A stretch of 64,000 bases of DNA from Fischerella sp. CENA71 (GTDB lineage Bacteria > Cyanobacteriota > Cyanobacteriia > Cyanobacteriales > Nostocaceae): contig JANBVI010000088.1 of NCBI GenBank assembly GCA_024239075.1, positions 1-64,000 on the forward strand, given 5' to 3'. The first letter of the stretch is position 1, and every line of letters begins with the position of its first letter. Positions 1 through 50,693 of this stretch are shown here, one piece after another. The position numbers and the translations under genes were made by a program. The notes beneath the pieces were generated by a model. The model did not search any database and was not told the DNA's origin. It saw only the letters and a program-made list of their open reading frames with translations.

Positions 1-536
1 AATCCTGTTTCATCTAAGTAATATAAGTTAATTTTACCTTCGGATTCTAAGCGTTTTAGCTCTGATAGCTGTTCCTTCTTTTCCTTGTATTCTATGGGGT
101 CTGGTTGACCGAATACATCTCTTCTCATGCGATGCCAACTCATAGAGAAAGTTTTAAGTATCCTTTTAATTGTGTCAGTACTAACTACAACATTCCATTC
201 GGATTTTACTTTTTGCAATACTTTTTTTAATTGCCTTGGTTCCTGTCTCGCCCATTCTCTAATTTTGGATTCTTGTTCGCGATCAAATATTTTCTTACTA
301 CCTCTGCCGGGTTTGTTATATAGCCCTAACATCCCCTCTGATTCCCAGCGATTTAGCCAGTTATAGATTGTCTTGTAACTCACGTTGAAAATAGTCATGA
401 GTTCCTCGACTTTGATTTTTTGTGAGGCTAATATTAAAAAATGCGCTCTTTGCCGTACCTGATGATGTCGGCTCTGGCGATATATACGTTCTAGTAGTTT
501 CAAAGAAAGAGGGTTTATTTCTCTGATGAAGAACAT
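1..536 (-). CDS. IS630-family transposase, N-terminal part (runs off the left edge)
   Basis: Reading leftward from an ATG at 534-536 the frame is open to the window edge, giving about 178 residues. The first 60 or so hold a helix-turn-helix (VSYKTIYNWLNRWESEG), followed by a second winged-helix-like stretch, and the last visible residues (YYLDETG) match the start of the DDE catalytic domain of IS630/Tc1-mariner transposases, where this Asp is the first catalytic acid. Such enzymes cut and paste their element into TA dinucleotides. The family is recognised from the HTH order and the LDETG motif. The catalytic C-terminus lies outside the window, so activity cannot be judged. The gene points away from the broken kinase that follows it, as expected of an element inserted in that kinase. 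Confidence 0.8.
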   Translation of the reverse strand, partial: MFFIREINPLSLKLLERIYRQSRHHQVRQRAHFLILASQKIKVEELMTIFNVSYKTIYNWLNRWESEGMLGLYNKPGRGSKKIFDREQESKIREWARQEPRQLKKVLQKVKSEWNVVVSTDTIKRILKTFSMSWHRMRRDVFGQPDPIEYKEKKEQLSELKRLESEGKINLYYLDETG

Positions 537-611: not shown

Positions 612-1349
612 TTACTTAATGAACCCGAAAAAGCTAGAGAAATGTTGCAAATAGCTTTTAATAATAGCGTTCGCCTTGTGCGTTTTGTTGAGGAAATTCT
701 TGATCTCGAACGACTAGAGTCTGGCAGAATTCAACTTGAAATGAAAACATGCGAGATCACTAATTTAGTACATCAAGCAATTGAGACTGTGCAAGCGATC
801 GCTAACGAAGCCGGGATTAAAATTTCCGTCATGGTTCCAAATATGCAAATTTCGGCAGCAGCAGACTCAATTATTCAAACATTAATCAATTTGTTAAGTA
901 ATGCTATTAAATTCTCACCTACGGGTGGTACTGTTTGGTTGAGTGCAGAGTTGCTGAGTCCAAAAGAGGAAGCGGAGATGGGAGGACACGGAGACACGGA
1001 GACACGGAGACACGAAGACACAGGAAATTTCGATCAATTACTCGCCGCGTCCCTACGTTTGCCACTCCCCCACTCTCCCTTGTCCCCTGTGTCTTCCCAA
1101 TCTCCCAAAATTCTATTTAAAGTCCGCGATCAGGGACGTGGTATTCCTCCAGAAAAGCTACAAAGCATTTTTGAACGCTTTCAGCAAGTTGATGTCTCTG
1201 ATCGTCGTCAAAAAAGAGGAAGTGGTCTAGGATTGGCCATTTGTAAGAATATTGTTCAGCAACACGGTGGACACATTTGGGTAGAGAGTCTGCTGGGAGA
1301 AGGAAGTACATTTTATTTCACATTGCCAATCACTAGGGAGGAGGCATGA
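612..1349 (+). pseudogene. Sensor histidine kinase, 5'-truncated next to the IS630 element
   Basis: Kinase homology begins in mid-domain at 612 (LLNEPEKAREML) in the second helix of the HisKA dimerisation domain, so the phospho-accepting His and all sensor domains are missing. A stop at 609 closes the frame upstream. An internal ATG at 642 could start a 235-residue product. The ATPase domain is present: N-box (NLLSNAIKFS), G1 box (VRDQGRGIP), F-box region and G2 box (GSGLGLAI), ending in GEGSTFYFTLP. Between N-box and G1 box sits a low-complexity insert of about 48 residues encoded by a dispersed repeat. The stop overlaps the start of the next response regulator (ATGA), the arrangement of a kinase-regulator operon. 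Without the His box the product cannot autophosphorylate, so it is probably a pseudogene. The missing front half should lie left of the IS element. Confidence 0.8.
965..1108 (+). repeat. Purine-arm/pyrimidine-arm dispersed element inside a kinase ATPase domain
   Basis: The left arm is purine-rich (repeats of GGAGACAC), then a short AT-rich centre (GGAAATTTCGATCAATTACTC), then a pyrimidine-rich arm (CCACTCCCCCACTCTCCCTTG). The frame stays open across it. The same architecture recurs at 13471-13592, 14313-14470, 23851-24032 and 49953-50145. Confidence 0.75.
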
Positions 1350-1720
1350 GCAAACGTATCCTAGTTGTAGACGACGAAAGAGACATCCGTAGAGTGGTTC
1401 AAATCTCCCTGGAAAATTTTGCAGGCTGGAAAGCAATCCTAGCTGAGTCAGGAGAGGAAGGATTACTCAAAGTCAGGACTAGTAAACCTATAGACGCTAT
1501 TCTCTTAGATGTATCTATGCCAGATATGGATGGATTTCAGGTTATTGATCGTCTTCGCTCGAATATAGCAACACAATTCATTCCAGTGATACTACTTACA
1601 GCTAAAGTGTTACCGAGCGATCGCCAACGCTTTTCTAAGATGGGAGTTGCTGGTGTCATCACCAAACCGTTTGATCCCATGACTATTTGGAAACAAGTAA
1701 CTGAAATTTTGGGCTGGTAG
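1346..1720 (+). CDS. Single-domain response regulator (CheY-like receiver)
   Basis: This 124-residue protein is one receiver domain with all conserved residues: acidic pair D9-D10, phospho-acceptor D55 in LLDVSMPDMDG, T85 and K106 in TKPFD. With no output domain it would relay phosphate or act by protein-protein contact in the cytoplasm. Its ATG overlaps the stop of the preceding truncated kinase by four bases, so the two were one operon. Translation of the regulator was probably coupled to that kinase, and the IS insertion may have cut it off from its original promoter. Cyanobacterial genomes carry many such stand-alone receivers, and no specific pathway can be named. Confidence 0.9.
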   Translation: MSKRILVVDDERDIRRVVQISLENFAGWKAILAESGEEGLLKVRTSKPIDAILLDVSMPDMDGFQVIDRLRSNIATQFIPVILLTAKVLPSDRQRFSKMGVAGVITKPFDPMTIWKQVTEILGW

Positions 1721-1732
1721 AAGAAGTATGAG

Positions 1733-1775
1733 ACAGGAGGAGGGAAACAAGGAGGACAAGGGAAGGGGGAGGATG
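1733..1775 (+). repeat. Purine-rich repeat half-arm
   Basis: A run of GGAGGACAAGGGAAGGGGGA-type sequence resembles the left arm of the dispersed hairpin elements, but no pyrimidine arm follows. It may be a decayed or single-arm copy. Confidence 0.5.
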
Positions 1776-1933
1776 TCAAGTACTCTTATACGGTGCTTAT
1801 AAGTATCTTACTTTTCAGTTTTATGCTCTGTCTTGAGTGAGTTAAATCTTGGAAAAACCCAGTGTCAGAGTGTAATCTATATTCCCAATCTGCTTTTAGG
1901 TGCGCTCTTGAACGCCCCAAAATTAATTTAATC

Positions 1934-2335
1934 ATGCCCCGCAAGCTGATTTTGCTTATCGATCACGAAGTTTCTATTCGAGCGATTTTACAAGTTTGCT
2001 TAAATCGTCTTGGTGGCTGGGATGTGCTGTCAGTTTCTTCTCTTCATCAAGGGCTTGAAGTTTTAACGATTAAAGAAGCATTATTGCTCAGAAAACCTGA
2101 TGCGATTGTTTTGGATGTACCAATGTTGGAAACAGATAGTCTTGGGATTATTCAAGAATTTATCACACATCCACAAATTAATGATATTCCAATTATTTTG
2201 ATTACCGCAAAAGCAAGTTGGTTTTCGCGTCAACAGCTGCAAGAGATGAATATTGCAGGAGCGATCGCCAAGCCTTTTAATCCAACTAAACTACCAAAAC
2301 AAATAGCTGAACTACTTAAATGGAAATTTGAGTAA
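1934..2335 (+). CDS. Response regulator receiver domain, slightly degenerate
   Basis: The best start is the ATG at 1934 (MPRKLILLIDHE); an open frame continues upstream to 1862 but that part has no receiver homology. From 1934 the product has 133 residues. The acidic pair is reduced: ID-H-E replaces the usual DD-E at the end of beta-1. The acceptor Asp is kept in AIVLDVPM, as are the Thr in ILITAK and the Lys in AKPFNP. It resembles the regulator at 1346 in length, in the unusual GGWD/AGWK segment and in the C-terminal KPF(N/D)P ending, which suggests a local duplication followed by drift. Phosphorylation may be weakened by loss of one Mg-binding acid. Confidence 0.75.
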   Translation: MPRKLILLIDHEVSIRAILQVCLNRLGGWDVLSVSSLHQGLEVLTIKEALLLRKPDAIVLDVPMLETDSLGIIQEFITHPQINDIPIILITAKASWFSRQQLQEMNIAGAIAKPFNPTKLPKQIAELLKWKFE

Positions 2336-2582
2336 AATTAAAATTTTTGATTATTTTAGAATAACACTATTTTTGACTATTTTTTTATTAATTACTTATT
2401 TACTGCTTATTTTTGGCTGATAAATTGATCATGGATTTGGGGTGATCATCTTTTTAATCTGTCTTTTGGTTAATTGGTTTGCTAGGTGTAATTAACCTGA
2501 TTTATGACAGTTTAGAGATGACTTTTTTCATGCAAAATCAGACATACATTTAATACATTACTTTTCATTAGGGGTATCTGCA

Positions 2583-2840
2583 ATGGACAAGCTAATTTCA
2601 TCTTTTAAGAAACTAACTGGAAAATTGCTTTGTAACAATGACGAAACGCAAATACAATTTATCCATGATTCCCTAAATAAAGAGAATATTAATGACTGTG
2701 ATTACTATGCTCAACAGGTAACGGTTGATCTTATTCAAGAATATAAGGATGATGCTGAGTTATTAAATATTTTTCAGCAGGCGGTGCTTACGCGAATACG
2801 CAACACAAACAAGATTGTTGATAAAAGCAACATTCACTAG
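2583..2840 (+). CDS. Small hypothetical protein, 85 residues
   Basis: An ATG at 2583 is preceded by AGGGG at a reasonable ribosome-binding distance. The product is hydrophilic, rich in Asp, Asn and Lys, and predicted helical, with a motif-free middle (DLIQEYKDDAELLNIFQQAV). There is no signal peptide or membrane segment, and I do not recognise a family. It stands alone between AT-rich spacers, downstream of the two receivers and in the same direction. Codon use is ordinary and it has a plausible ribosome site, so it is probably real, but the evidence is limited to the open frame and that site. Confidence 0.5.
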   Translation: MDKLISSFKKLTGKLLCNNDETQIQFIHDSLNKENINDCDYYAQQVTVDLIQEYKDDAELLNIFQQAVLTRIRNTNKIVDKSNIH

Positions 2841-2993
2841 TTCAAGCAATAAAAAGACTGAGAGTTGGGTGAGTGATGGGGATATTGGGAGATTTCTGAG
2901 AGATCGCCCCCGTCACTAGGTCTTTGATGTTTTCCTAGTCTTCTCCCGAATGCGAATGCATCTCTTTGAGGAAAATTGCTGTTAGCTATTTTC

Positions 2994-3055
2994 AAACTAG
3001 GGATTTTTTATCATGTTATTAAACTGTTAATTATTTTGTGATTAATCCCTAGTTT
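2994..3055. repeat. 12-bp inverted repeat with AT-rich loop
   Basis: AAACTAGGGATT (2994-3005) is matched perfectly by AATCCCTAGTTT (3044-3055), enclosing 38 AT-rich bases. It could be a small palindromic element or an RNA stem. Nothing else identifies it. Confidence 0.55.
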
Positions 3056-3334
3056 AGTTTAACATTATCTCAACATTAAGTATCATAATATTTGCTGTAT
3101 TAAATTGCAAACTTGATTGAAATTAATACCTTGATAATTAAAAATTTAAGTTGAATATTAAAATGGTGATCTTCACTAGTAAAATTTTTTCTTATAAGAG
3201 ATACTTTGCTGATAAGTAACTTGAAAGTGTTTAGCAAACTCCCGAACCAAAATCAGTTTGAAGTAAAACCTAACAAACAAGCTAACAGATTGACGATATT
3301 ACAGATTAGCGCTACTATTAATGCTTTCATAAGA

Positions 3335-3470
3335 AAAACCCCAGTTACACTGGGGCTGGGTTGAACGTTTCCTATGTCACTATAATCACGTAGTGATTAT
3401 TCCGAAACAGTGAATTTCACCCATGAAGATGGGTAAAAATTAACCCCGGTCATACCGGGGTTAATTGTGA
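3335..3470 (-). ncRNA. Candidate structured RNA or tandem terminators (four hairpins)
   Basis: Four stems lie within 130 bases: CCCCAGT/ACTGGGG (3339-3355), ATAATCAC/GTGATTAT (3382-3400), ACCCAT/ATGGGT (3419-3434) and a perfect 12-bp stem ATTAACCCCGGT/ACCGGGGTTAAT (3439-3465). Read on the minus strand, both GC-rich stems are followed by five T residues, the form of intrinsic terminators. No minus-strand gene lies to the right to be terminated, which leaves either a small RNA transcribed leftward or remains of a lost gene. The stretch includes AGGAAAC on the minus strand, a motif I associate with Yfr2-type cyanobacterial RNAs, but the fit is too weak to assign it. Confidence 0.4.
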
Positions 3471-3740
3471 GACTAGTTTCAAAAAGAGTTACTAGCAGAG
3501 GATAGAACAGCATTTTGAAGCACAGATTTGAGGTGTATCACATATTTTTTTGTCATTTTTCAATAAAATCTCAACACGAAAAAATGACAAAGTATAGGAT
3601 ATGATTATCGTACACAACCGAGACAACAGCGAAATCAACAAAGGTAGACAAATCAATGTTTGGAGGTTGTAGGAGAGATGTAAGGGTGTGAAGGGGTGGG
3701 AATGGAAAAGGAAAGATGGGTATAAAGATGTGAGGGTGTA

Positions 3741-3825
3741 ATACCAATTTTCCAAAAGAGTACTACAGATGATGACGCCAAGATGCCAAGATTGATTCTG
3801 TTGCGAGATTATAGAGAATTGGTAT
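3741..3825. repeat. Short element bounded by ATACCAATT inverted ends
   Basis: ATACCAATT (3741-3749) and AATTGGTAT (3817-3825) form exact inverted ends of an 85-bp segment. Inside is a piece of a GACGCCAAGATGCCAAG-type repeat, similar to a segment inserted in the helicase gene near 59.97 kb. Its right end touches the next element. Confidence 0.45.
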
Positions 3826-3827
3826 AA

Positions 3828-4043
3828 GAGGATGTTTGAAAAGTCATGCTGTAGCTTGCTTCCCTGAAAGGGTACGTAGCGCAGCGTAGTGAAGCATCTC
3901 CGAGTAATCGCTCCAACCCTAGATTCTACTCTGCGAGAAGCCGCTACGCATCTACGTTCCACTTTGTTCCACACCCTGCGGGAAGCCGCAGAAGCGTCTA
4001 CAGAATGACAAATTATACCTTTTCCAACTTTTCAAACAGCCTC
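3828..4043. mobile_element. MITE-like element, 216 bp
   Basis: GAGGATGTTTGAAAAGT (3828-3844) is mirrored by ACTTTTCAAACAGCCTC (4027-4043), 16 of 17 bases pairing. A direct repeat TAA (possibly TAAGAGG) flanks both ends, as after target-site duplication. No transposase frame fits inside, so it would be non-autonomous. It contains several CTGCGGGAAGCCGC-type palindromic repeats, a sequence also seen near 30.08 kb and in variant form near 50.96 kb. Confidence 0.5.
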
Positions 4044-4774
4044 TAAGAGGGAAGAAGAATTTTTATAAATTTTATATCTTTAAAAATTAAAGTACTCCTA
4101 ATTTTTATCTACACCCAGCAACTCCTCCTACCTATTAATCTGTCAATTTAGTTGTGAGTGATTATTTTTCTCCGTGTCATCACTTCACCACCAACATCTA
4201 TTATTCATTTAAATCTTGACTGAAGATTGTATCTCTATACCGTTTTTGATAAAAGCGAAAATTTTTAAATGAAGCGTATTGAGATTTAACGCAGAAGATT
4301 GTTAATTTTTAATACTAAAGTGATGAGCATGAGGATCTCTTTCTGACTTGTAGGGTGATACCCCTCATCAATTTGAAAATCTTCTCAGAATATTAACCAA
4401 ATACTTATCAGTCAGATTTTTCTATTTTTTAACAAAAATCTCATGTTATTTTGCTCTTATAGATTTATTATTTTGCTCTTATTTTTGTAAGTTAAAATTA
4501 AATAGAAAATCAATCATCAATGTAGTTTAATCTACATTTTATTTAGAAACAAAGAGCCTGATCAATGATAAGCATTAAAAAAAATTATGACTATAATTTG
4601 ATTGGTTATTATCCAGCTATACAACTAATGTAATATCAGCAAATAATATTTCAGCTTCATTGTCTTATTTGGCATGAATTTGAGTCAATGAGCCATAGGT
4701 TTTGATGTCTGGAGTGAGCCGTGAGGAGCAATTAAACCTCTCAATCAACACCCTTAGTATGGTTGTCATACGTT

Positions 4775-5308
4775 ATGAAAAATTCTGCTGAAAATCCTAT
4801 TGACCTAATTGTTGCTAGATTTGGAAATCAAGAACGGGCTGTTGAAGTGCTTGAGGAACTAAAGTATCTTAAGCAGGAAAGAATGATCGGGCTTTGGAAT
4901 GCAGCAGTTATAACTAAGGATGAAAACGGTAAGCTGTTCTTCAAACAAACGGTTCAGACAGTAGGAATCAAACGGAGTGTAGGTATTTGTGGGGTATTAG
5001 GGGCTATTATTGGTATCTTGGCTGGTGGACCGATTACAGGTATTGTGTTGGGTAACGCATCTAGCACTCTCAGTGGAAAATTCATCGATTTGGGTTTTGA
5101 CGAACAAGAACTTAGGGAAATCGGTCACTCTCTGGGTACTAGTAGTTCTGCCATCATTGCTATTGTTGAACACAAGTGGGTCAGAGAACTGGTTGATACC
5201 CTTACCAAATTAGGAGCTAAAATTACTTGCCAGCGTCTAAGGGATGAAGTTGCTGTGGCGATCGCTATAGATGCTGATTTTGAGAACCTGACAGTAGTAA
5301 ATAGATGA
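4775..5308 (+). CDS. DUF1269-family membrane protein
   Basis: The ATG at 4775 is preferred; a TTG four codons upstream has no added support. The 177-residue protein has an N-terminal alpha/beta part with the family's IDLIVARFGNQERAVEVLEEL-like opening and a central GIWNAAVI-type strand, then a glycine-rich hydrophobic segment (residues 75-95, GVLGAIIGILAGGPITG), then a C-terminal alpha/beta part. DUF1269 proteins are small membrane-associated proteins of unknown role, often found with stress genes. The stop overlaps the start of the DUF202 gene that follows, so the two are co-translated and probably act together in the membrane. Confidence 0.75.
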   Translation: MKNSAENPIDLIVARFGNQERAVEVLEELKYLKQERMIGLWNAAVITKDENGKLFFKQTVQTVGIKRSVGICGVLGAIIGILAGGPITGIVLGNASSTLSGKFIDLGFDEQELREIGHSLGTSSSAIIAIVEHKWVRELVDTLTKLGAKITCQRLRDEVAVAIAIDADFENLTVVNR

Positions 5309-5733
5309 AGGATGATATTCCTGCTCCCAAAACACCTAATATCCAAATCGAACTTGCCAAAGAGCGTAACCGAGCTGCCGCTGAACGCACACTCATGGCG
5401 TGGATTCGCACTAGCCTTACCCTGATCAGCTTTGGTTTTGGGATTGATGTCATCGTCAGCGCTATCCGTAGCTTTCAAGTTGTTCGAGACATTAATCCTG
5501 TACGTCTTTCTCGCATTCTAGGTCTTGCTTTCATTGCCTTGGGTATTTATGCAATGATTATGGCAATGATCCAACACCAGCGAGAATTGTATCATATCCG
5601 ACGCGACGAGGAATATCTCTACACTCCCCGTCATTCTCTAGCATTGACAGTTGCGATCGCTCTAGTTTGCATTGCTGTCTTTGCATTTATTGGCATTTTG
5701 GTAAGTGCATTCACTCACAAAAATAGCATGTAG
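5305..5733 (+). CDS. DUF202 (YidH-type) membrane protein
   Basis: The 142-residue product has the family hallmark ELAKERNRAAAERTLMAWI at residues 13-31, followed directly by three hydrophobic segments (about 32-50, 65-88 and 108-130). YidH/DUF202 proteins are small inner-membrane proteins of unproven function. Its ATG overlaps the preceding gene's stop (ATGA). The next DUF202 gene repeats the N-terminal motif nearly word for word, so the pair is a local duplication. Confidence 0.85.
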   Translation: MKDDIPAPKTPNIQIELAKERNRAAAERTLMAWIRTSLTLISFGFGIDVIVSAIRSFQVVRDINPVRLSRILGLAFIALGIYAMIMAMIQHQRELYHIRRDEEYLYTPRHSLALTVAIALVCIAVFAFIGILVSAFTHKNSM

Positions 5734-5866
5734 GTTGTTTCAGGTGTAATTAATTGTGTCCGAGTAGAAACGCAAAATTACCCTGGAGAATGTTGCTAGG
5801 CATTTGGTACAAATTTATATTTATGATGATTAACGTAATATGTTACTCATCAATATGTGAATTTGC

Positions 5867-6283
5867 GTGAGTTTGAGTCCCTTTAAAAAACCGACTATTA
5901 CCACTAACGAATTAGCAAAAGAGCGTAATCGCGCTGCTGCTGAACGCACATTGACAAGTTGGATTCAAAATTGCTTATCATTGATTGGTTTTGGTATCGC
6001 CTTTGATCGCATTTTTAATGCGCTGAATGAGTTGATTCCCAAACATAATCCACACATTGCTATGCAACTGGCTCACATTATTGGTTTGAGCGCGATCGCT
6101 TTAGGCATTTTTCTGTTAGTTTTAGCAACAATTGGATACTTAATCAAAGTCAAATCATTAGAGCAAGAGGAATACTCATATAAATCAACTTATATTGTCA
6201 ATCTATCTGTCTTTGTCGTTTCTGTGATTTTATTTGGTTTGGTGACACTAGTTGCTGTTTTTACTGTAATTTCCTCACCATAG
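5867..6283 (+). CDS. Second DUF202 (YidH-type) membrane protein
   Basis: A GTG at 5867 is the most upstream start after an in-frame stop at 5858, giving 138 residues. The NELAKERNRAAAERTLTSWI motif (residues 14-33) and three hydrophobic segments match the gene just upstream, but the rest has diverged strongly: the Arg after the first segment is replaced by Asn-Cys in WIQNC, and the loops differ. A 133-bp gap separates it from its paralogue, so it may have its own promoter. A heteromeric complex of the two DUF202 proteins with the DUF1269 protein is an inference from their neighbourhood. Confidence 0.8.
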   Translation: MSLSPFKKPTITTNELAKERNRAAAERTLTSWIQNCLSLIGFGIAFDRIFNALNELIPKHNPHIAMQLAHIIGLSAIALGIFLLVLATIGYLIKVKSLEQEEYSYKSTYIVNLSVFVVSVILFGLVTLVAVFTVISSP

Positions 6284-6301
6284 TACTTATCTTTAAGATG
6301 A

Positions 6302-6385
6302 TTTTTTGATTTTGATTTAGTCGCCTTTAGTCCTAATGGTAAATTATTAGCCACTAATGATATACCTATACATCCTGAAATATGA
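6302..6385 (+). pseudogene. WD40-repeat remnant
   Basis: After a stop at 6299 the frame reads FFDFDLVAFSPNGKLLATND and then ends at 6383-6385. VAFSPNGKLLATND is the signature strand of cyanobacterial WD40 propeller repeats. Only one partial blade is left, with no start codon, so this is the tail or a fragment of a lost WD40 protein. Its stop codon overlaps the glpK start. Confidence 0.6.
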
Positions 6386-7869
6386 GTTACATTTTGGCAT
6401 TAGATTTAGGGACAACAGGCAACCGTGCTTTTGTGTTTGATGCTCTTGGCAAAATTGTTGGGCAAGCATACAAAGAACTCACACAGTATTATCCCCAACC
6501 CGGATGGTTAGAACATGACGCCGAGGAGATTTGGCAAGATACTTGTTGGGTGATACAAACTGCGATCGCCAATGCCAAAATTATCCCTAGTGAAATTGTG
6601 GCGATGGGAGTAACCGTTCAGCGCGAAACCTGTTTAATTTGGGACAAAACCACTGGCAAACCTCTACATCAAGCGATTGTTTGGCAAGATCGCCGCACTG
6701 CTCCTTTGTGTAATCAATTACAAACCCAAGGTTATGGTGATGAGATTTACGATCGCACTGGTTTAGTTATCGATGCTTATTTTTCCGCTACAAAGCTCAG
6801 ATGGCTGCTCGATCATGTCACAGGTATTGAGCTCAAAAATGTTTTAGCTGGGACAATTGATACCTGGGTATTGTGGAAACTCACAGGTGGAAAAGTTCAC
6901 GCTACGGATCACAGCAACGCCAGTCGGACAATGCTGATGAATCTGACAAGCTGTACATGGGATGACACCTTACTAGAATTATTGCAAATACCCGCTCATA
7001 TCTTGCCCCAGATCCAACCCAGTTTAGGAAAATTTGGTGTGACTGATAGCACTTTACTCGGTGCGGAAATTCCGATCACTGCTATTTTGGGAGATCAACA
7101 AGCAGCTTTATTTGGTCATGGATGCGATCGCCCTGGTTTAATGAAATGTACTTACGGCACTGGTAGTTTTTTAGTTGCTCACACTGGCTCAGAAATTGTC
7201 CGTTCTCAAAATCGGCTTATTTCTACTGTGGCATGGACGCAAATTCGTAATGGTAGTTTAGATGTGGGCTATGCCTTGGAAGGTAGCATGTTTACCAGTG
7301 GGGCCTGTATCCAATGGTTGCGGGATAGCATGAAGCTGATTCAAACGGCTGCCGAGACAGAAGCGATCGCTAATCAAGTTACAGATAACGGTGGTGTATA
7401 TTTTGTTCCAGCATTTAGCGGATTGGGCGCACCTCACTGGGATATGAGCGCCAGGGGAGCCTTTTTTGGCATTACCGCCGCCGTCCAGCCACAGCATTTA
7501 GTTAGGGCTGTCTTAGAAGCGATCGCCTACCAAGTCAAAGAAGTTGTGCTAGCCATCAGCGGGACTTGCAGCACGACGGTAAATAAATTAACAGTAGATG
7601 GTGGAGCCTGTGAAAATAACTTCCTCATGCAGTTCCAAGCAGATGTGTTAAATATATCAGTTGAACGTCCAGTGATGCGTGATACTACTGTGCAGGGTAT
7701 CGCCATGGCCGCTGGTTTGGCGGCGGGATTTTGGGATAGTTATGAAACGCTGGTGCAACAACGACACATTGATCGTTACTTTTCGCCTGGGATAGGAAGT
7801 GAATATGCAACAGCTAATTTCATCATTTGGCAAAAGGCGGTAGAACGGGCTAAATATTGGGTAAATTGA
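6382..7869 (+). CDS. glpK: Glycerol kinase
   Basis: GlpK phosphorylates glycerol to sn-glycerol-3-phosphate with ATP in the cytoplasm, feeding lipid synthesis or glycolysis. The 495-residue length matches the family. Both FGGY domains are intact: N-terminal phosphate loop DLGTTGNRAFVF (residues 8-19), the glycerol-binding WLEHDAEEIW and VTVQRETCLIWD stretches, HSNASRTMLMNL, the ATP-site GDQQAALFGHG and YGTGSF, and the C-terminal GLGAPHWD and VDGGACENNFLMQFQAD. The TTG-N-R tip differs from the TTSSR of the E. coli enzyme. It stands alone, with its ATG overlapping the stop of a WD40 remnant. The only glycerol-lipid link in the window is the PlsY-like fusion at 24.1 kb. Confidence 0.92.
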   Translation: MSYILALDLGTTGNRAFVFDALGKIVGQAYKELTQYYPQPGWLEHDAEEIWQDTCWVIQTAIANAKIIPSEIVAMGVTVQRETCLIWDKTTGKPLHQAIVWQDRRTAPLCNQLQTQGYGDEIYDRTGLVIDAYFSATKLRWLLDHVTGIELKNVLAGTIDTWVLWKLTGGKVHATDHSNASRTMLMNLTSCTWDDTLLELLQIPAHILPQIQPSLGKFGVTDSTLLGAEIPITAILGDQQAALFGHGCDRPGLMKCTYGTGSFLVAHTGSEIVRSQNRLISTVAWTQIRNGSLDVGYALEGSMFTSGACIQWLRDSMKLIQTAAETEAIANQVTDNGGVYFVPAFSGLGAPHWDMSARGAFFGITAAVQPQHLVRAVLEAIAYQVKEVVLAISGTCSTTVNKLTVDGGACENNFLMQFQADVLNISVERPVMRDTTVQGIAMAAGLAAGFWDSYETLVQQRHIDRYFSPGIGSEYATANFIIWQKAVERAKYWVN

Positions 7870-8121
7870 CCAATCATTCCTTAATGCTACAGAGCAATCA
7901 GTCATAAGTCAAAAATACAAACGCAATTCCATTCCCAAAGAAATTGTATCTTTCTATGATGTTAAAAAGGTACTGTAATTTAAATAACATTTTTTGGGAA
8001 CTAAGAGCAGACAAATTATTTTGCGATCGCACAATGTTTGGATAAACCTAAAAAGTCATAACAAAATCAGCGAAAAAATCACAAAGCTGACTAAAATCAA
8101 TCTAGCTAGCTGGGATTGAAT

Positions 8122-10158
8122 ATGGTATCAACTTCTACTCGCTTTTCGGATATTCAAAATCATTGGGCCCGTGCTTTTATTGAAGCTTTAGCCCAGCGTA
8201 AAATTTTAAATGGGTATCCCAATGGCACGTTTCGTCCCGATAACTCAGTCACTCGTGCAGAGTTTGCTGCCATCATTACCACAGTTTTTAACCTACCTGG
8301 GAAGCGGGAGTATGTGCCGTTTACTGATGTTCCTGCTAACCACTGGGCAGTAAATGCCATTCAAAAAGCTTACGAAATCGGATTTTTGTCTGGCTATCCT
8401 GATCGCAGTTTCCGTCCCAATAATAGAATTGCTAAAGGTGATGTTTTGGTCTCTTTAGTCGGTGGCTTAGGTCTAGGTGCTGATGTGAAGGCTGATGTAT
8501 TACCAAAACTTCCCCTCATCTATAACGATGCAAGTAGTATTCCTGAATATGCCAAGAATGCAGTGGCGATCGCCACTCGTGCTGGTATAGTGGCTAATTT
8601 TCCTAACGTGAAAATACTGAATCCCACTGGAGCAGCAACCCGTGCTGACGTCGCAGCAATAGTTTATCAAGCATTGGTATATGAGGGTAAGGCCGAGAAA
8701 ATTCTCTCTAACTATATAGTGGTTGCTCCGGAACCAGGAAATGAATCGGGAAATCTACCGTCACCGTCAACACCTCCTGCAATTGTCAGTCATAGCCGGG
8801 AGTTTCGTGGGGCTTGGGTTGCTTGTGTGTGGAATAGTGATTGGCCTTCTAAAACAGGACTTTCTGTTGCACAGCAAAAAGCCGAGTTAATCAAAATAAT
8901 TGAAAAATTAGATGCTCTCAATTTTAATGCCTTGATATTTCAGGTACGACCAGAGGGCGATGCTATGTATGCTTCCCAACTGGAACCGTGGAGTGCTTGG
9001 TTAACAGGAACTCAGGGCAAAGCACCAGATCCATTTTATGACCCTTTGGAGTTTGCGATCGCTGAATGTCACAAGCGCAATATTGAACTTCATGCTTGGT
9101 TTAATCCTTACCGGGCTAGTACTTCCACAAATCCAGCGAAAACTGTTCGCCCCCACATCGCAGCTACTAATCCAGAATGCGTCTATGTTTGGAAGACTCA
9201 ACGCTGGATGGACCCAGGACTGAAAATCGTTCAGGATCGAGCTTACAATGTGATCTTAGACGTGGTGAAGCGCTACGATGTTGACGGCATTCACTTAGAT
9301 GATTATTTTTATCCCTATCCCATAGAGGGTCAGTCTTTCCCCGATGATAAAACTTACGCTGCCTACAAAGCTGCTGGTGGTACTCTCGGCGTTAGTGATT
9401 GGCGTCGCGACAATGTGAACAAAATGGTACAGCGTCTATGGCAAGGAATTAAAGCAACCAAACCCTACGTTAAATTTGGCATTAGTCCCTTTGGTATCTA
9501 TCGCCCCGGACAACCCCCTGGAATTACCGGGTTAGACGCTTATAATGTGCTGTATGCCGACTCGAAGAAATGGCTAGAACAAGGTTGGATTGATTATATT
9601 GCTCCCCAGCTTTACTGGCGCACCGACCAAACACAACAAAGTTATTCTGCCCTATTGAAGTGGTGGACAGAGGTTAACACCAAACAAAGACACGTATATG
9701 CAGGTAACAATCTTACAGAACCAAGCAACAAGAGTCGGGAGAGTGGCGAAATTGAAAAGCAGGTGAAAATTAGTCGTAGCCAAGCTGGACAGTTTTCACT
9801 AGGAAATATTTTCTTTAATGTCGGTGTTTTAATTGACAATAGTCAGGGCATTGCCGATAAATTACAGTTGCTTTACAACAAACCTGCCTTACCTCCGACT
9901 TTGTCTTGGCAGAACACCACACAACCAGCACCACCCACAGCCCTACAAGTGAGTAACCGTAAACTGACTTGGAAGCCAGGTGATAACAGCCAGATTCGTT
10001 CTTGGACGGTTTATAGACAAAGCGGCGATACTTGGACTCTCCAGCGAGTTTTGCCTGCCAATACTACCTTTGCAACCGTTGAACCGGGAACTTATGCCAT
10101 ATGTGCAGTAGATAGACTAGCGAATGAAAGTGTAGGAGTGGCGATCGCAGTTAGTTAA
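8122..10158 (+). CDS. SLH-domain protein with GHL10 (DUF187) glycoside-hydrolase-like domain
   Basis: The ATG at 8122 is chosen over a TTG two codons before it. The 678-residue protein starts with three S-layer-homology repeats (about residues 8-55, 70-118 and 130-185), each with the ITRAEFAA/GYPDRSFRP-type core, which bind cell-wall polymers. A Pro/Ser linker (about 205-222) leads into a GHL10 catalytic-like domain (about 224-560) starting EFRGAWVACVWNSDWPS, with FQVRPEGDAMY, HAWFNPYRA and DGIHLDDYFYPYP, typical of (beta/alpha)8 enzymes such as B. subtilis YngK. A fibronectin-like C-terminal module (about 595-678) ends it. The layout implies an envelope-bound glycosidase, although no signal peptide precedes the first SLH repeat. 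Confidence 0.8.
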   Translation: MVSTSTRFSDIQNHWARAFIEALAQRKILNGYPNGTFRPDNSVTRAEFAAIITTVFNLPGKREYVPFTDVPANHWAVNAIQKAYEIGFLSGYPDRSFRPNNRIAKGDVLVSLVGGLGLGADVKADVLPKLPLIYNDASSIPEYAKNAVAIATRAGIVANFPNVKILNPTGAATRADVAAIVYQALVYEGKAEKILSNYIVVAPEPGNESGNLPSPSTPPAIVSHSREFRGAWVACVWNSDWPSKTGLSVAQQKAELIKIIEKLDALNFNALIFQVRPEGDAMYASQLEPWSAWLTGTQGKAPDPFYDPLEFAIAECHKRNIELHAWFNPYRASTSTNPAKTVRPHIAATNPECVYVWKTQRWMDPGLKIVQDRAYNVILDVVKRYDVDGIHLDDYFYPYPIEGQSFPDDKTYAAYKAAGGTLGVSDWRRDNVNKMVQRLWQGIKATKPYVKFGISPFGIYRPGQPPGITGLDAYNVLYADSKKWLEQGWIDYIAPQLYWRTDQTQQSYSALLKWWTEVNTKQRHVYAGNNLTEPSNKSRESGEIEKQVKISRSQAGQFSLGNIFFNVGVLIDNSQGIADKLQLLYNKPALPPTLSWQNTTQPAPPTALQVSNRKLTWKPGDNSQIRSWTVYRQSGDTWTLQRVLPANTTFATVEPGTYAICAVDRLANESVGVAIAVS

Positions 10159-10290
10159 AACCTAGAAGGGGGACAAGGAGGCAATTTTTCTCTGAGTTTC
10201 CCCAGTCATAGCTAGATGCCACATTATATCAAGCTTGATACGTCGCGATCGCCTCTTTAAGACTTGGGATGATTGCAAAAATTTAGAATA

Positions 10291-11046
10291 CTACCGTTGT
10301 AGTTCAGCATCATCAATGATTCTCCGTTTTGGTTGCATTGCTGCTTTTTGGATACAAAACTGAACTTCTGTTAAATGTAAATTCATGTATGAGAGCAAGG
10401 CATATATGAAGATGACGATACCAAACATCTCGCAGAACTCTTCAAACGCTGTAATCATTGCATAGGTCATATTCTCATAACTGTAGAGATCGTCATAGCG
10501 TCCAGCAAACATTTCCGCACCGATTGCACCGCTAACGAAGATAGTACCAGCAACAAAAAATAAAAGTCTTATCTTTCTTGGAAGATGAGCCAAAAATTTG
10601 AGATACGACAGCACAAAGATCAGTGTCAGGGGAATGCCAATAGCAACCCAACCGTAGTGAAAAAAACCCGTTCTGTTGATGCTTGAGCCTAATATTGCGT
10701 CTGCATTCTCATGAATCATCGCTACTTCGTCTATAGATAGATACAAAAAAATACCTGATAAAACTTTCCAATGGAGAATGTAGCGAGCGCGAGCGATCTT
10801 TTGAGATGTGGCAATAAATGCCAACAGGAGCGAACAAAATAATAGTGTAATGGATGAGTACCATGTAGGAATGTTAGAATCATCACCCACGTTGAACAAC
10901 CTTACTAATCCAAAAAGACTACCATGACCGAGAATATACTTAGAAAACTGTCCAGCAATACTGACAAAACTTAAACATATAATTACGATACTTAAGACGA
11001 AAGCAACCTTTTTAGGGGAAATATGTAATGTCAATTTTACTACCAT
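10291..11046 (-). CDS. Multi-pass membrane protein of unknown function
   Basis: The 251-residue protein has six or seven hydrophobic segments (about 13-33, 62-80, 95-110, 130-150, 158-178, 196-220). Two polar motifs stand out: LSIDEVAMIHENAD near residues 103-116 inside or next to a membrane helix, and FEEFCEMFGIVIF near 200. Acidic residues and His within helices suggest a metal or proton site, but I cannot name the family. It is convergent with the SLH-GHL10 gene and stands alone. The ATG at 11046 follows an AT-rich leader with no clear ribosome site. Confidence 0.65.
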   Translation of the reverse strand: MVVKLTLHISPKKVAFVLSIVIICLSFVSIAGQFSKYILGHGSLFGLVRLFNVGDDSNIPTWYSSITLLFCSLLLAFIATSQKIARARYILHWKVLSGIFLYLSIDEVAMIHENADAILGSSINRTGFFHYGWVAIGIPLTLIFVLSYLKFLAHLPRKIRLLFFVAGTIFVSGAIGAEMFAGRYDDLYSYENMTYAMITAFEEFCEMFGIVIFIYALLSYMNLHLTEVQFCIQKAAMQPKRRIIDDAELQR

Positions 11047-11503
11047 TTTATTTTTTTGAGAAATAAAATTTTTAAGGTAAATTTATTTACCTATGTGTTT
11101 ATTGTAACCCTTAATTAATATTTTTTAATCTTAATTTAAACTTTTTAAGTAAGAAAATACTAGTAATAGGCTATACAAAGATGCAAATAAAAAAGCAGTA
11201 AAAATGCGGTGTTGCTGAATCAGGGTATGAATTTTCACTATAATACGTTCCAATACCGCTTCGATGCGTTGCTCTTTCTCAAGGGTTTTCAGCCTGCTTT
11301 CCTTATAAATTCAGGGCTGAAGCGCTTACTAAGAGCCTTAAATTATTTATATCAAGCTAATTTATCTGTTCTATTTAGATTGCTATCTATCCAAAATCTT
11401 TAAAAAATATTAAAATAAAAAACAATAACCATATTTTGGGGTAATCAAAAACACTAGCCCCAATCATGCAGTTTAACTAGCACCTTTTTGAAAATCTCAT
11501 TGT
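11047..11503. other. Intergenic spacer without supported gene
   Basis: AT-rich upstream regions of two divergent genes. A segment at about 11200-11330 (GCGGTGTTGCTGAATCAGGG and onward) is less AT-rich and has a 64-codon open frame with no homology I recognise. It may be a worn repeat or insertion-sequence scar. Confidence 0.4.
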
Positions 11504-13810
11504 TTGGAGTTGTTATTAACTAGTCACGACGATCTCAGTTTTAACCCTGGCTCGATTCAGCCTCATGGTGTACTTTTAGCACTAAGTACACAATTGGTGA
11601 TATTACAAGTTAGCAGCAATACCCAAGACTATTTGGGTAAACGACCACAAGAGTTGCTTGGTCAACCTCTGAGTTCTTTGCTCGATGCTTTGTGTTTAGA
11701 AGCGATCGCTCAACTTCCAATAAACGAAATTGACACTATTAATTACCTGAAGCTATCAGTCCGTACAAATGAAGGTAAGCGAGACTTTGATGGTTTTGTG
11801 CATCGAGTAGAAAACACGATCATTTTAGAGCTAGAACCAACACAATCGCCAGTTCCAGTCAATTTCTTGAACATTCACACCTTAATCAAAGGAGCGATCG
11901 CCAAACTTAAACGCACAAATAACCTAATAGATTTCTTACAACTTACAGCCCAGCAAGTACGCAATATTACAGGATTTGATCGGGTGATGGTTTACCAATT
12001 TGACCATCAAGGCGCGGGGGTAGTGATTGCTGAAGTCAAAACAGAAGAGTTATCACCCTATTTGGGACTACACTATCCAGCTACAGATATACCACGAGGA
12101 GCTAAGGATTTATACAAACGAAATCCGTTGCGGATTATACCATGTATTCATGCCCAACCTGTAGAATTAATTCCTACAGCAGATGATACTACCCTTGATT
12201 TAAGTCTGTCTGTGCTGCGGAGTGTTGATCCTTGTTGTGTGGAATATCATCAAAATATGGGTGTGGCTGCTTTGATGGTCATTCCCCTAATTAAAGATGA
12301 AAAGCTGTGGGGATTAATTTCCTGTCATCATCAAACTCCTAGATATGTCCCCTATGAAATCCGGGCTGGTTGCGAATTTTTGGGACAAATTGTGTCATCG
12401 GAGTTGGCAAATAAAGTCATTCAAGAGGAAGTAGATTATAAAATTAGATTGGAATCTCTGCGGTCTAGTGTTGTCGAATCTATTTCTCAAGCAGATAACT
12501 TCAGAGATGCACTAATCCAGCCAGAACCCCGCTTACTAGGTATTGTAGGTGCGACAGGGGCAGCAGTTTGTTTGGATAGTGAAATTTCTCTGCTGGGAGC
12601 AACACCAGATATTGAAAATGTGCGATCGCTAATTACTTGGGCAGATGCTCAGGAGAAAGACAATATATTTTATACTGATTCTCTGCCCAAGCTTTACCCA
12701 GAGGCTGAGACATTTAAAGATACCGCTAGTGGTTTATTGCTATTGCGGATTTCTAAATTGCGACATTATTATATACTCTGGTTTCGCCCCGAAGTCATCC
12801 GCACGGTAAACTGGGCAGGTAATCCCAACGAATCGATTCAAGTTAACTCAGATGGTACTATTACCCTTTGTCCCAGAAAGTCCTTTGAAAAATGGCAAGA
12901 ACTTGTGAGATTAACATCTGTACCTTGGCAAAAATGCGAACTTGATAGTGCTTTGAGTTTGCGAAATGCGATCGTGGGAATTGTTCTTAAAAAAGCAGAA
13001 GAATTAGCCAAAATCAATCAAGAGTTAGAAACCATTAACCGCGAATTAGCTTCTTTTGCTTATGCAGCTTCTCATGATCTCAAGGAACCCTTACGAGGTA
13101 TATATAATTACTCAATAATTTTACTAGAAGACTATGCATCCGTCCTAGATGAAGATGCTACAGATTACTTACAGACAGTTATTTCCTTGTCGGTACGCAT
13201 GGAAACCCTAATTAATGGTTTACTACGACTATCGCAATTAGGGCAAGCAGCACTACATTTACAAGCAGTAAATTTAAACGAATTGCTTGAGCAAGTGATC
13301 AATGTCTTTGATGCTAGCCATCAACAACATAATCTCGAAATTCGTATACCCAAAGCTTTACCAACAATTCAGTGTGACCCAGTTCTTGTTAACGAGGTCT
13401 TTAGTAACTTGATTACTAATGCTTTTAAATATAATGATAAAGCAGAAAAATGGGTAGAAATTGGTTATTTGGACAGGGAGGACGCGGGGAATCAGGAGAC
13501 ACAAAGACAAGGGGAGACCGAGAATTTAAATGAAAGACTCTCCGCATCACCGCATCCCTCCCTCTCCACGTCTTTTCTCGATTCCCAGCCCGCAATCACT
13601 TTTTACGTACGGGATAACGGTATTGGAATTCCAGTCCATCACCACCAAACCATTTTCAAACTGTTCAAACGGCTGCATACTCAAGAAAAATATGGTGGTG
13701 GAACAGGTGCTGGACTGGCGATCGCCAAGAAAATAATTGAACGTCACGGTGGTCAAATTTGGGTTGAATCTACCGCAGGCGAAGGATCAACATTTTATTT
13801 GACACTATGA
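11504..13810 (+). CDS. Phytochrome-type photoreceptor histidine kinase
   Basis: Domain order is PAS (about 15-110), GAF (125-305), PHY (315-500), HisKA and HATPase (510-768). The PAS carries NPGSIQPHG. The GAF carries PATDIP with D195 and the SVDPCCVEYHQNMGV helix. The PHY tongue has NWAGNP and CPRKSFEKW. The Cys at about 244 aligns with the bilin-attaching Cys259 of Cph1, while the next residue, normally the conserved His260, is Cys here. No N-terminal BphP-type Cys is seen, so a phycocyanobilin-type chromophore on the GAF Cys is inferred. The phospho-acceptor is H524 (AASHDLKEPLRG). A repeat-derived insert (about 657-696) splits the ATPase domain. The TTG start is uncertain; no better start was found. 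An Rcp1-type regulator follows 60 bp on. Confidence 0.88.
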   Translation: MELLLTSHDDLSFNPGSIQPHGVLLALSTQLVILQVSSNTQDYLGKRPQELLGQPLSSLLDALCLEAIAQLPINEIDTINYLKLSVRTNEGKRDFDGFVHRVENTIILELEPTQSPVPVNFLNIHTLIKGAIAKLKRTNNLIDFLQLTAQQVRNITGFDRVMVYQFDHQGAGVVIAEVKTEELSPYLGLHYPATDIPRGAKDLYKRNPLRIIPCIHAQPVELIPTADDTTLDLSLSVLRSVDPCCVEYHQNMGVAALMVIPLIKDEKLWGLISCHHQTPRYVPYEIRAGCEFLGQIVSSELANKVIQEEVDYKIRLESLRSSVVESISQADNFRDALIQPEPRLLGIVGATGAAVCLDSEISLLGATPDIENVRSLITWADAQEKDNIFYTDSLPKLYPEAETFKDTASGLLLLRISKLRHYYILWFRPEVIRTVNWAGNPNESIQVNSDGTITLCPRKSFEKWQELVRLTSVPWQKCELDSALSLRNAIVGIVLKKAEELAKINQELETINRELASFAYAASHDLKEPLRGIYNYSIILLEDYASVLDEDATDYLQTVISLSVRMETLINGLLRLSQLGQAALHLQAVNLNELLEQVINVFDASHQQHNLEIRIPKALPTIQCDPVLVNEVFSNLITNAFKYNDKAEKWVEIGYLDREDAGNQETQRQGETENLNERLSASPHPSLSTSFLDSQPAITFYVRDNGIGIPVHHHQTIFKLFKRLHTQEKYGGGTGAGLAIAKKIIERHGGQIWVESTAGEGSTFYLTL
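13471..13592 (+). repeat. Dispersed hairpin-type element inside the phytochrome kinase domain
   Basis: A purine-rich arm (ACAGGGAGGACGCGGGG), an AT-rich centre (GAGAATTTAAATGAAAGACT) and a pyrimidine arm (CCGCATCCCTCCCTCTCC) follow the plan of the intergenic copies at 23.9 and 50.0 kb, whose centre is AATTATTTAACAAGTCTC. The reading frame passes through without a stop. Confidence 0.75.
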
Positions 13811-23850: not shown

Positions 23851-24032
23851 GGATCAAGGAGCCGGAATCGGGAACAAAGGGGGACAAGGGGGACAAGGGA
23901 GACAAAGGGGACAAGGCAGAATTATTTAACAAGTCTCTTTCCCGAACTTCGATCCCCAATCCCCGATACCCGATCCCCGATCTCCAACCCCCGATACCCG
24001 ATCCCCAGTCCCCAATCCCCGATCCCCGATCT
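23851..24032. repeat. Dispersed purine/pyrimidine hairpin element
   Basis: The purine-rich arm (GGGACAAGGGGGACAAGGGA) is joined by the centre AATTATTTAACAAGTCTC (23920-23937) to a pyrimidine arm of CCGATCCCCAATCCCC units. The same centre occurs at 50074-50091, showing that the copies are one family. Confidence 0.85.
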
Positions 24033-24129
24033 GCATTCATGAAGTATTAAGAAAAAGTCCCAGCATATACTAACAATTAAGTATTTGAGATTTTAGATTT
24101 AAATAGGAATCTAAAATCCAATATCCAAC

Positions 24130-49893: not shown

Positions 49894-49952
49894 AGGAAGT
49901 TGGGGCTAACTTGATTGAAAATAAACAGGATTTTAACACTCACTAGGCAAAG

Positions 49953-50145
49953 TCGGGGAAAGGGGATCGGGGATCGGGGAAAGGGATCGGGGGTCGGGGA
50001 AAGGGTAAAGGGAATTGGGGAAAGGGAAACACAAGAGGGGGACAAGGGAAGAGAGACAAGGGAGACAAGGGAGAATTATTTAACAAGTCTCTTCCCAATC
50101 CCCGATCCCCAATCCCCAATTCCCGATCCCCGATCTCCGATCCCC
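49953..50145. repeat. Dispersed purine/pyrimidine hairpin element
   Basis: The left arm has GGGGATCGGGGATCGGGGAA units and GGGAGACAAGGG, the centre is AATTATTTAACAAGTCTC (50074-50091), and the right arm has CCGATCCCCAATCCCC units. It lies against the ssb stop and could terminate both flanking transcripts. Confidence 0.85.
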
Positions 50146-50147
50146 TA

Positions 50148-50693
50148 TTAAAACGGAATGTCGTCAACATCTGGTTCTGGATTTGGGGTTACGGGAGGAT
50201 AGGAAGTACGTTCCGGTTTTGAGGTTTGGGGAGCAGGTTGGGAGTAATTATTTTGGGAAGCGACACCAGCATGACTGGTTGCTGGAGTTGCTGTTGGAAG
50301 TGGTGGTTCGTAACTAGAAACTGATTTTTGGGGAGTCGGAACTGGTACTGAGGATGGTGCTGTGGTTACAGGAGACTCACCTATGTTTAAATTTGCAACT
50401 AAAGGATAAATTTTTTGTACTGTCAATTCAGCACGTTTTTCTTTAAAACCTTCTGGACGATCAATGGTATGCATACCTAAACGTCCTTCTACAAGAATGC
50501 GATCGCCAATATGGTAGTTCTGCTGGATGTCTTTAGCTATATTGCCCCAGCCTACCACTTTTAAATTTGCTGCCGGCTCACCTTCTCGCAATCCAGAAAA
50601 CTGCACCAGCATTTCTGTTATTTCTAATCCATCTGGTGTAAAACGCAGTTCTGGTTCTTTAACAATTTCCACCATTAAAATACAGCTGTTCAT
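50148..50693 (-). CDS. ssb: Single-stranded DNA-binding protein
   Basis: The 181-residue protein starts after AAGGAG. The OB fold (1-105) has the family features: MVEIVKEPELRFTPDGLEITEM, FSGLREGEPAANLKVVGWG, and GDRILVEGRLGMHTIDR. A long Pro/Ser/Thr-rich linker (105-172) ends in the acidic tip DVDDIPF that recruits repair and replication proteins. As a tetramer it coats single-stranded DNA. The N-terminal MNSCILMVEIV is unlike most SSBs and is characteristic of the cyanobacterial form. The gene is isolated from rpsF, and a dispersed repeat abuts its 3' end. Confidence 0.92.
   Translation of the reverse strand: MNSCILMVEIVKEPELRFTPDGLEITEMLVQFSGLREGEPAANLKVVGWGNIAKDIQQNYHIGDRILVEGRLGMHTIDRPEGFKEKRAELTVQKIYPLVANLNIGESPVTTAPSSVPVPTPQKSVSSYEPPLPTATPATSHAGVASQNNYSQPAPQTSKPERTSYPPVTPNPEPDVDDIPF

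Follow-up and report, generated by a model that had tools for sequence, protein, structure and literature searches.

A dispersed palindromic repeat lies in frame at one loop of the ATPase domain in scattered histidine kinases of a Fischerella-like cyanobacterium

Two unrelated histidine kinases encoded in one stretch of cyanobacterial DNA, an N-terminally truncated kinase and a phytochrome, carry inserts of the same kind at the same point of the ATPase domain (HATPase_c), and this locus raises the question of how they came to be there. The stretch, termed here the window, comprises 64,000 nucleotides of Fischerella sp. CENA71, a Fischerella/Westiellopsis-like filamentous cyanobacterium with a genome of 7.47 Mb in 95 contigs (G000). 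Each insert consists of a purine-rich arm, an AT-rich centre and a pyrimidine-rich arm. A preliminary description of the window had placed both inserts between the strand that follows the N box and the G1 box (VRDQGRGIP in one kinase, VRDNGIGIP in the other) and had stated that they keep the reading frame open; the positions are confirmed and both open reading frames (ORFs) are uninterrupted. We propose, with a probability of about 0.7, that the inserts represent a palindromic, protein-coding element dispersed in genomes of Nostocaceae, similar in kind to the Rickettsia palindromic elements (RPEs), which is tolerated at a beta-hairpin turn and whose content turns over rapidly.

The element is a short dispersed palindromic repeat of about 75-130 bp with the full consensus GGGGACACGGGGACGCGGGGACACGGAGAATATTTTTGATAAATTCTCCGCGTCACCGCGTCTCCGTGTCTCCGC; its left arm is purine-rich and made mostly of 8-bp units, its AT-rich centre has the consensus GGAGAATATTTTTGATAAATTCTCC, and its right arm is pyrimidine-rich. 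A profile obtained by aligning seeds and iterating (cut-off E 1e-3) matched 75 places, 71 of them distinct, in 1.65 Mb of kinase-enriched G000 sequence, and none in the same 1.65 Mb reversed without complementing; a strict DNA pattern for the element centre gave no matches. A sequence-model search of the whole genome, in which 150 of 4,261 first-look candidates were scored, yielded 151 matches, a total that is a rough lower bound and in which roughly 20 are second-strand matches of one place. With stricter filters and few candidates scored per genome, the element was found in 43 of the 119 genomes of a family sample, representing 22 of 56 genera (G000 included), and in seven of the 194 genomes of a phylum sample, six of which belong to the same family (G000 included) and one to another family of the order. 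The candidate end motifs GAAGA(G/C)GAC and GTCTTCT are present at a minority of copies. At three places (L052 9201-9275, L084 9430-9487, and L015 555-629), a TPGATTGG-like peptide or a AACGGAGGGAACCTCCGCAACGC-like DNA repeat is nested in or beside the copies.

We counted 127 HATPase_c matches in the G000 genome, with several representing halves of a single domain. Our kinase survey combined the 30 first loci with 80 stretches picked to cover the remaining matches, and the N-box-to-G1 spacing was determined by a regular-expression survey and a survey guided by a hidden Markov model (118 clusters, four without the motif pair), resulting in 113 unique measured domains. The commonest spacing is 32 residues (30 domains). 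Twelve domains, chosen by eye from the printed loops, contain the purine-arm/AT-centre/pyrimidine-arm insert in this loop and have spacings of 65 to 115 residues: two in the window and one each in L031, L033, L048, L059, L064, L070, L083, L084, L086, and L089. Thus, the two kinases reported initially are real carriers, but their number was too low. Eleven carriers match the element profile, and L059 (6075) has a GGQGGQ-type repeat instead; the remaining long spacings resemble other loop variants or motif slips. In a thirteenth kinase (L076 11909-12091), the N-box-to-G1 loop is occupied by a small palindrome of another sequence, GAGACGCGAT-TC-ATCGCGTCTC, whose 10-bp arms are perfect.

We built a tree of 97 of the 113 domains with the loop removed, omitting 16 with weak motifs, short spacing, or missing flanks. 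The 12 carriers require 11 changes of state; the mean for shuffled labels is 11.5, and 210 of 500 shuffles need 11 or fewer. The supported branches force at least eight changes. The nearest paralogues of the window kinases (L048_6722 and L003_1531) both lack the insert, which together with the tree scatter supports independent filling of an exposed loop, one of the possibilities raised at the outset, and disfavours sharing of the insert by common ancestry. An exception is possible for window carrier 888 and the carrier in L033, which lie inside one supported set of five and may therefore share one event.

The copies are not confined to kinases. Of the 71 distinct places, 44 are inside ORFs of at least 240 residues (43 at a threshold of 250). 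In 350 kb of stretches that were not chosen for kinases, six copies are genic and seven are not; at that rate, which rests on these six genic copies, 0.7 copies would be expected in HATPase coding DNA, whereas 11 were seen, all in one loop. Pfam scans of 40 of the 43 host stretches (three of the 40 gave no match; the short names are our reading of the families) identified the hosts as histidine kinases, MiaA-, TrpD-, RecJ-, PPDK-, YjeF-, and GFO/IDH-type proteins, and further as AMP-binding-, ABC-, GH38-, PBP-, and PKS-type proteins.

Several other sites recur among the hosts. In three receiver domains (L031 16905-16972, L077 18526-18599, and L086 9669-9732) the element occupies one loop, a second recurrent site, after yEAtrEI... 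and before IIALTA.AFEE, where the Pfam match is broken at profile position 68. Two kinases in L071 (1104-1168 and 3500-3559) have the element at one point of the HisKA hairpin region. Copies in L033 (12141-12207) and in L302 of genome G094, from two genera, directly follow an OmpR-type DNA-binding domain at its GYRLK end, with Pfam evidence for that domain in L033 only.

Among the 27 non-genic copies, seven are between convergent ORFs, a placing described also for repetitive extragenic palindromes (REPs), and an ORF of at least 120 residues runs into the element from one side in four. Of the six same-strand pairs listed as flanking non-genic copies, five were tested for a split gene, and each of these comprises two distinct proteins; removal of the segment from mRNA was thus rejected for these pairs. 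The genome encodes two Y1_Tnp genes; one of them is separated from a copy by about 0.8 kb (L326; G000 C27 about 428307-429502), and none was found within about 1.5 kb of the other. A putative link through these genes to the REP-associated tyrosine transposases (RAYTs) is therefore weak, and no RAYT gene flanked by the element was found.

The genic copies favour one reading frame. The centre is read in the same frame in 38 of the 42 genic copies that could be anchored (two of the 44 could not), with P about 7e-13 against a baseline of 0.37 that was taken from the open frames of non-genic copies and is itself rough and decayed. The same frame is used in 22 of 25 genic copies from five other genomes of four genera; this sample of 40 loci, picked among the matches listed for six genomes, comprises 43 places, 18 of them non-genic, with ORFs of at least 200 residues taken as genes. 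For 52 oriented non-genic copies, the stops in phases 0, 1, and 2 number 26, 35, and 24, the mean hydropathy is -0.52, -0.55, and -0.71, and the open copies free of a hydrophobic run of four number 19, 11, and 13, respectively. Stops and mean hydropathy thus do not explain the bias, and hydrophobic runs do so only in part and weakly. The bias points to some coding-level constraint; this much of the protein-level role envisaged in the preliminary description is retained, and a protein-level effect is possible.

In relatives of the phytochrome, the loop measures 41 to 135 residues from motif to motif and is at most 50 residues long in 20 of the 57 measured, namely 18 of 35 in a first set (39 loci, not all orthologues) and 2 of 22 in a second set (30 loci). 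All phytochrome loops at the same-genus loci are filled, with content that differs. The loop could be measured at 21 of 24 loci related to the truncated kinase; in 20 of these, the kinase itself among them, it is 66 to 119 residues long; the twenty-first, of 38 residues, is likely a motif slip. Three of these relatives (L213, L214, and L217) hold the same repeat class, and the others hold unrelated sequence or other repeats. The loop is hypervariable in orthologues of both window genes, and other lineages hold MSPVSP, PHAPCPM, or GGQGGQ repeats. Unrelated loops of the same length in orthologues, proposed earlier as the sign of ordinary loop variation, were not what we found for the phytochrome; the truncated kinase comes close to this state.

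The turnover of the loop contrasts with the conservation of its host. Between the window phytochrome and that of W. prolifica (L111), the kinase flanks are identical at 227 of 232 residues without a gap, with proportions of synonymous and nonsynonymous differences (pS and pN) of 0.113 and 0.011, and a dN/dS ratio of 0.09; the loop is identical at 11 of 31 residues with 15 gap columns, with a pS of 0.635 and a pN of 0.435. The difference greatly exceeds what neutral drift of the flanks would give; dN/dS values of 0.07-0.15 were obtained for the flanks in five further same-genus or near orthologues.

Short sites exist in orthologues of the housekeeping hosts. The MiaA site has 6 residues in G001 and G002, which belong to other genera, vs. 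38 in G000; the YjeF site has 7 in the same two genomes vs. 61; and the GFO/IDH site has 4 in the same-genus genome G110 vs. 71, with 15 in the outgroup G002. The RecJ, TrpD, and PPDK sites are filled in all four same-genus genomes, often by a 9-nt/heptamer class, and by the 8-nt class in G000, where a TrpD paralogue (L228) has 14 residues at the site. Overall, five of the six orthologue sets have no unfilled site among the four same-genus genomes. Gene conversion, another of the early suggestions, is unnecessary for the scatter of carriers; however, filled sites could not have changed their content without some process of replacement.

In the two best PDB matches of the phytochrome, both bacteriophytochrome kinases, the alignment stops at residue 162 and resumes at residue 203. 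In the AlphaFold2 model, residues 170-200, which make up most of the insert, have a predicted local distance difference test (pLDDT) score under 50 and are flanked by strands at residues 156-163 and 206-211. The insert is thus predicted to form a disordered excursion from a beta-hairpin turn.

The inserts had been called hairpin-type, a term that holds for the family (mean z -4.4, 59 of 71 copies) and hardly for the two window copies. Folded with RNA parameters, these 59 copies have mean z-scores of -4.36 and -4.81 on the two strands relative to dinucleotide shuffles, with z under -2 in 52 and 51 of them. The window copies, folded as single-stranded DNA with DNA parameters, show only a slight advantage over shuffles (z -1.61 and -0.47). 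It is the make-up of the repeats that gives rise to the hairpin.

According to the favoured reading, copies would spread between and inside genes by a mobile or recombination process, and genic copies would persist if the frame stays open and the site is a tolerant surface loop or linker. The turn between the two beta strands separating the N box from the G1 box is the most used tolerant site seen, hence the presence of the element at the same point of unrelated kinases. A filled site would tend to keep a repeat, with its content changing fast via gain and loss of units and replacement by another repeat class, while the host would stay under purifying selection. The segment is presumably translated and its effect on the kinase would be near neutral. 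Alternatively, the insert could have arisen once and spread through duplication or conversion of ATPase domains, since 11 kinases share the loop, the reading frame, and similar centres, and two carriers fall within one supported set of five; we consider this very unlikely, as carriers are scattered like shuffled labels and the element is also found in many non-kinase genes and between genes. Ordinary loop variation would mean drift of a relaxed loop in which slippage expands simple purine/pyrimidine repeats, without any dispersed element. Part of the loop data agrees with this: in orthologues of both genes the loop is hypervariable, with other tandem repeats in other lineages, 20 of the 21 measured relatives of the truncated kinase are long-looped, and the arms are built of 8-nt units whose number varies. 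As a full explanation, loop variation is nonetheless unlikely and was rejected, leaving unexplained a common centre-and-arm profile at 71 unrelated places that include intergenic DNA, with no match in the control, a phytochrome loop pN of 0.435 vs. a flank pS of 0.113, and the presence of the motif in enzymes that have short sites in genomes of other genera. Slippage and drift are likely a part of arm turnover.

Selection for a role at the protein or RNA level, for instance as a flexible regulatory kinase loop, would agree with the shared frame of 38 of the 42 anchored genic copies in G000 and of 22 of 25 in the other genomes, for which neither stops nor mean hydropathy account; it is made improbable by hosts that are functionally unrelated, a repeat class that differs between close relatives, zero conserved RNA pairs, and 101 of 113 measured kinase domains that do without the insert. 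A more far-reaching version of the proposed coding element, which we regard as possible yet doubtful, is that it is mobile and frame-locked and encodes one polar peptide (about (E)EDTGTRGHGDTGNxxDxxLSASPRLPLSASS), settling at preferred loops of kinases and enzymes, which would then serve as ports that exchange repeat-cassette classes.

Several points weigh against a dispersed element with repeated arrival and neutral persistence. The kinase tree was made by a quick method with a simple model and a long-branch warning. Hardly any short loop is seen near the truncated kinase, and insertion there thus rests on paralogues. The four residues of the GFO/IDH site in G110 are fewer than the 15 in G002, so deletion is possible, and since five of six housekeeping sets are fully filled in the four same-genus genomes, one old filling followed by turnover fits as well as repeated arrival. 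The gapped loop alignment with W. prolifica is poor, making the loop pS and pN rough. The AlphaFold2 model, built from 27 sequences, is of modest confidence (mean pLDDT 73.8, predicted template modelling score 0.57), and residues 227-242 likewise have a pLDDT under 50. The frame bias exceeds the prediction from stops and hydrophobic runs, and simple neutral tolerance is therefore incomplete. Neither a mobilising enzyme nor a target-site duplication came to light, no search aimed at duplications having been made, and the copy about 0.8 kb from a Y1_Tnp gene may reflect chance proximity. Finally, an alignment of 30 element sequences gives zero consensus base pairs, and the arms pair no better within a copy than between copies (duplex -23.5 and -24.1, respectively), which speaks against RNA structure as a conserved trait and leaves the RNA role considered in the preliminary description unsupported.

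Cyanobacterial STRR/SDR repeats, reportedly treated by Elhai in 2008, are said to be dispersed short repeats. The heptamer criterion for STRRs, tandem 7-nt units, does not describe the element, whose units are mostly 8 nt; heptamers occur in a sister class of intergenic copies. Two reports describe the coding palindromes of the RPE kind, of Wolbachia, and of M. jannaschii as dispersed and in frame in assorted housekeeping genes, typically in non-structured segments (PMC2996958; PMC3733652). Like these, our element is palindromic, dispersed in and between genes (71 places, 44 genic), and in frame in conserved genes with relatives that lack it (the MiaA and YjeF sites being short in two other-genus genomes); unlike them, it belongs to another lineage, has arms of 8-bp units, reuses one loop of one domain family, and differs in class at a fixed site. 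This likeness is one of descriptions rather than of compared sequences, and does not establish kinship to a named RPE family. PARCEL coding palindromes, given as tandem 25-residue amphipathic domains (PMC2996958), share with the element palindromic DNA that codes; by description, not by profile, the single disordered-looking inserts are set apart from them. Intragenic REPs tagged with GTAG or CGTC appear in PMC3733652 as small palindromes in ORFs of many functions, possibly in linkers or loops, whereas REPs are otherwise mostly downstream of coding regions, with different REPs near the same recB site in two Xanthomonas species; they are 20-40 bp long with an unpaired tag, and the GTAG ones are often RAYT-linked. 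In contrast, the element is about 75-130 bp long, has arms built of units and lacks a clear tag; CGTC is frequent within its arms, where it does not form a clear unpaired foot. A close analogue of a persistent site with class change is the P6b stem-loop of the Nostoc trnL intron, whose 7-nt repeat class (Class I or Class II) was replaced repeatedly in heterocystous cyanobacteria according to PMC4476775; it differs in being part of an RNA intron, untranslated, and made of other units. The heptamer arm of the sister class looks like the GGGGA(C/T)T heptamers of Nostoc PCC 7120, which are dispersed, G-rich and short, 68% intergenic, and otherwise in genes, and which are described as simple repeats rather than as palindromes that code in frame within a protein loop (PMC4692102).

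The features of the window are listed in Table 1. The Pfam HATPase_c match of the truncated kinase is confined to the part downstream of the insert (profile 37-110), and most best matches among its relatives sit in longer ORFs. A transposase-like helix-turn-helix ORF at window 3-536 (HTH_32 and HTH_Tnp_Tc3_2 by Pfam) adjoins this kinase, whose N-terminal part may have been lost to it. The two intergenic copies were assigned to the sister class because their arms differ and their profile score falls short of E 1e-3. The likeness reported between the phytochrome and intergenic centres is only partial: both read GAAT-N12-CTC, and 11 of 19 bases agree.

Table 1. Kinase genes, inserts, and intergenic repeat copies in the window
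Feature	Coordinates	Strand	Evidence
N-terminally truncated histidine kinase ORF, 235 aa, host of copy 1	642..1349	+	Pfam HATPase_c 4.8e-29
Copy 1, purine arm, 8-nt unit GGAGACAC	966..1022	+	sequence
Copy 1, AT-rich centre GGAAATTTCGATCAATTACTC	1023..1043	+	sequence; profile match 997-1070
Copy 1, pyrimidine arm	1044..1108	+	sequence
Phytochrome histidine kinase (PAS_2, GAF, PHY, HisKA, HATPase_c), host of copy 2	11504..13810	+	Pfam
Copy 2, purine arm	13471..13521	+	sequence
Copy 2, centre GAATTTAAATGAAAGACTC (GAAT-N12-CTC)	13522..13540	+	sequence; profile match 13495-13567
Copy 2, pyrimidine arm	13541..13592	+	sequence
Intergenic sister-class copy: 9-nt purine arm, AATTATTTAACAAGTCTC centre, heptamer pyrimidine arm	23877..24033	+	
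Second intergenic sister-class copy	49952..50148	+	

The best-known coding palindromes are those of the intracellular bacterium Rickettsia, and a comparable family is now seen in a large-genomed filamentous cyanobacterium; among the papers listed in our literature searches there was no report of a cyanobacterial coding palindrome of this kind, though an earlier mention is possible. Since filled, short, and class-changed orthologous sites exist in close relatives, the arrival, tolerance, and turnover of coding inserts become directly testable in this group. A histidine kinase ATPase loop that accepts inserts of up to about 80 residues is now marked, and annotators are cautioned against taking repeats of this type in Nostocaceae proteins for conserved domains. 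If a frame-locked element with cassette ports proves true, it would amount to a means of fast rewriting of protein surface loops in Nostocaceae.

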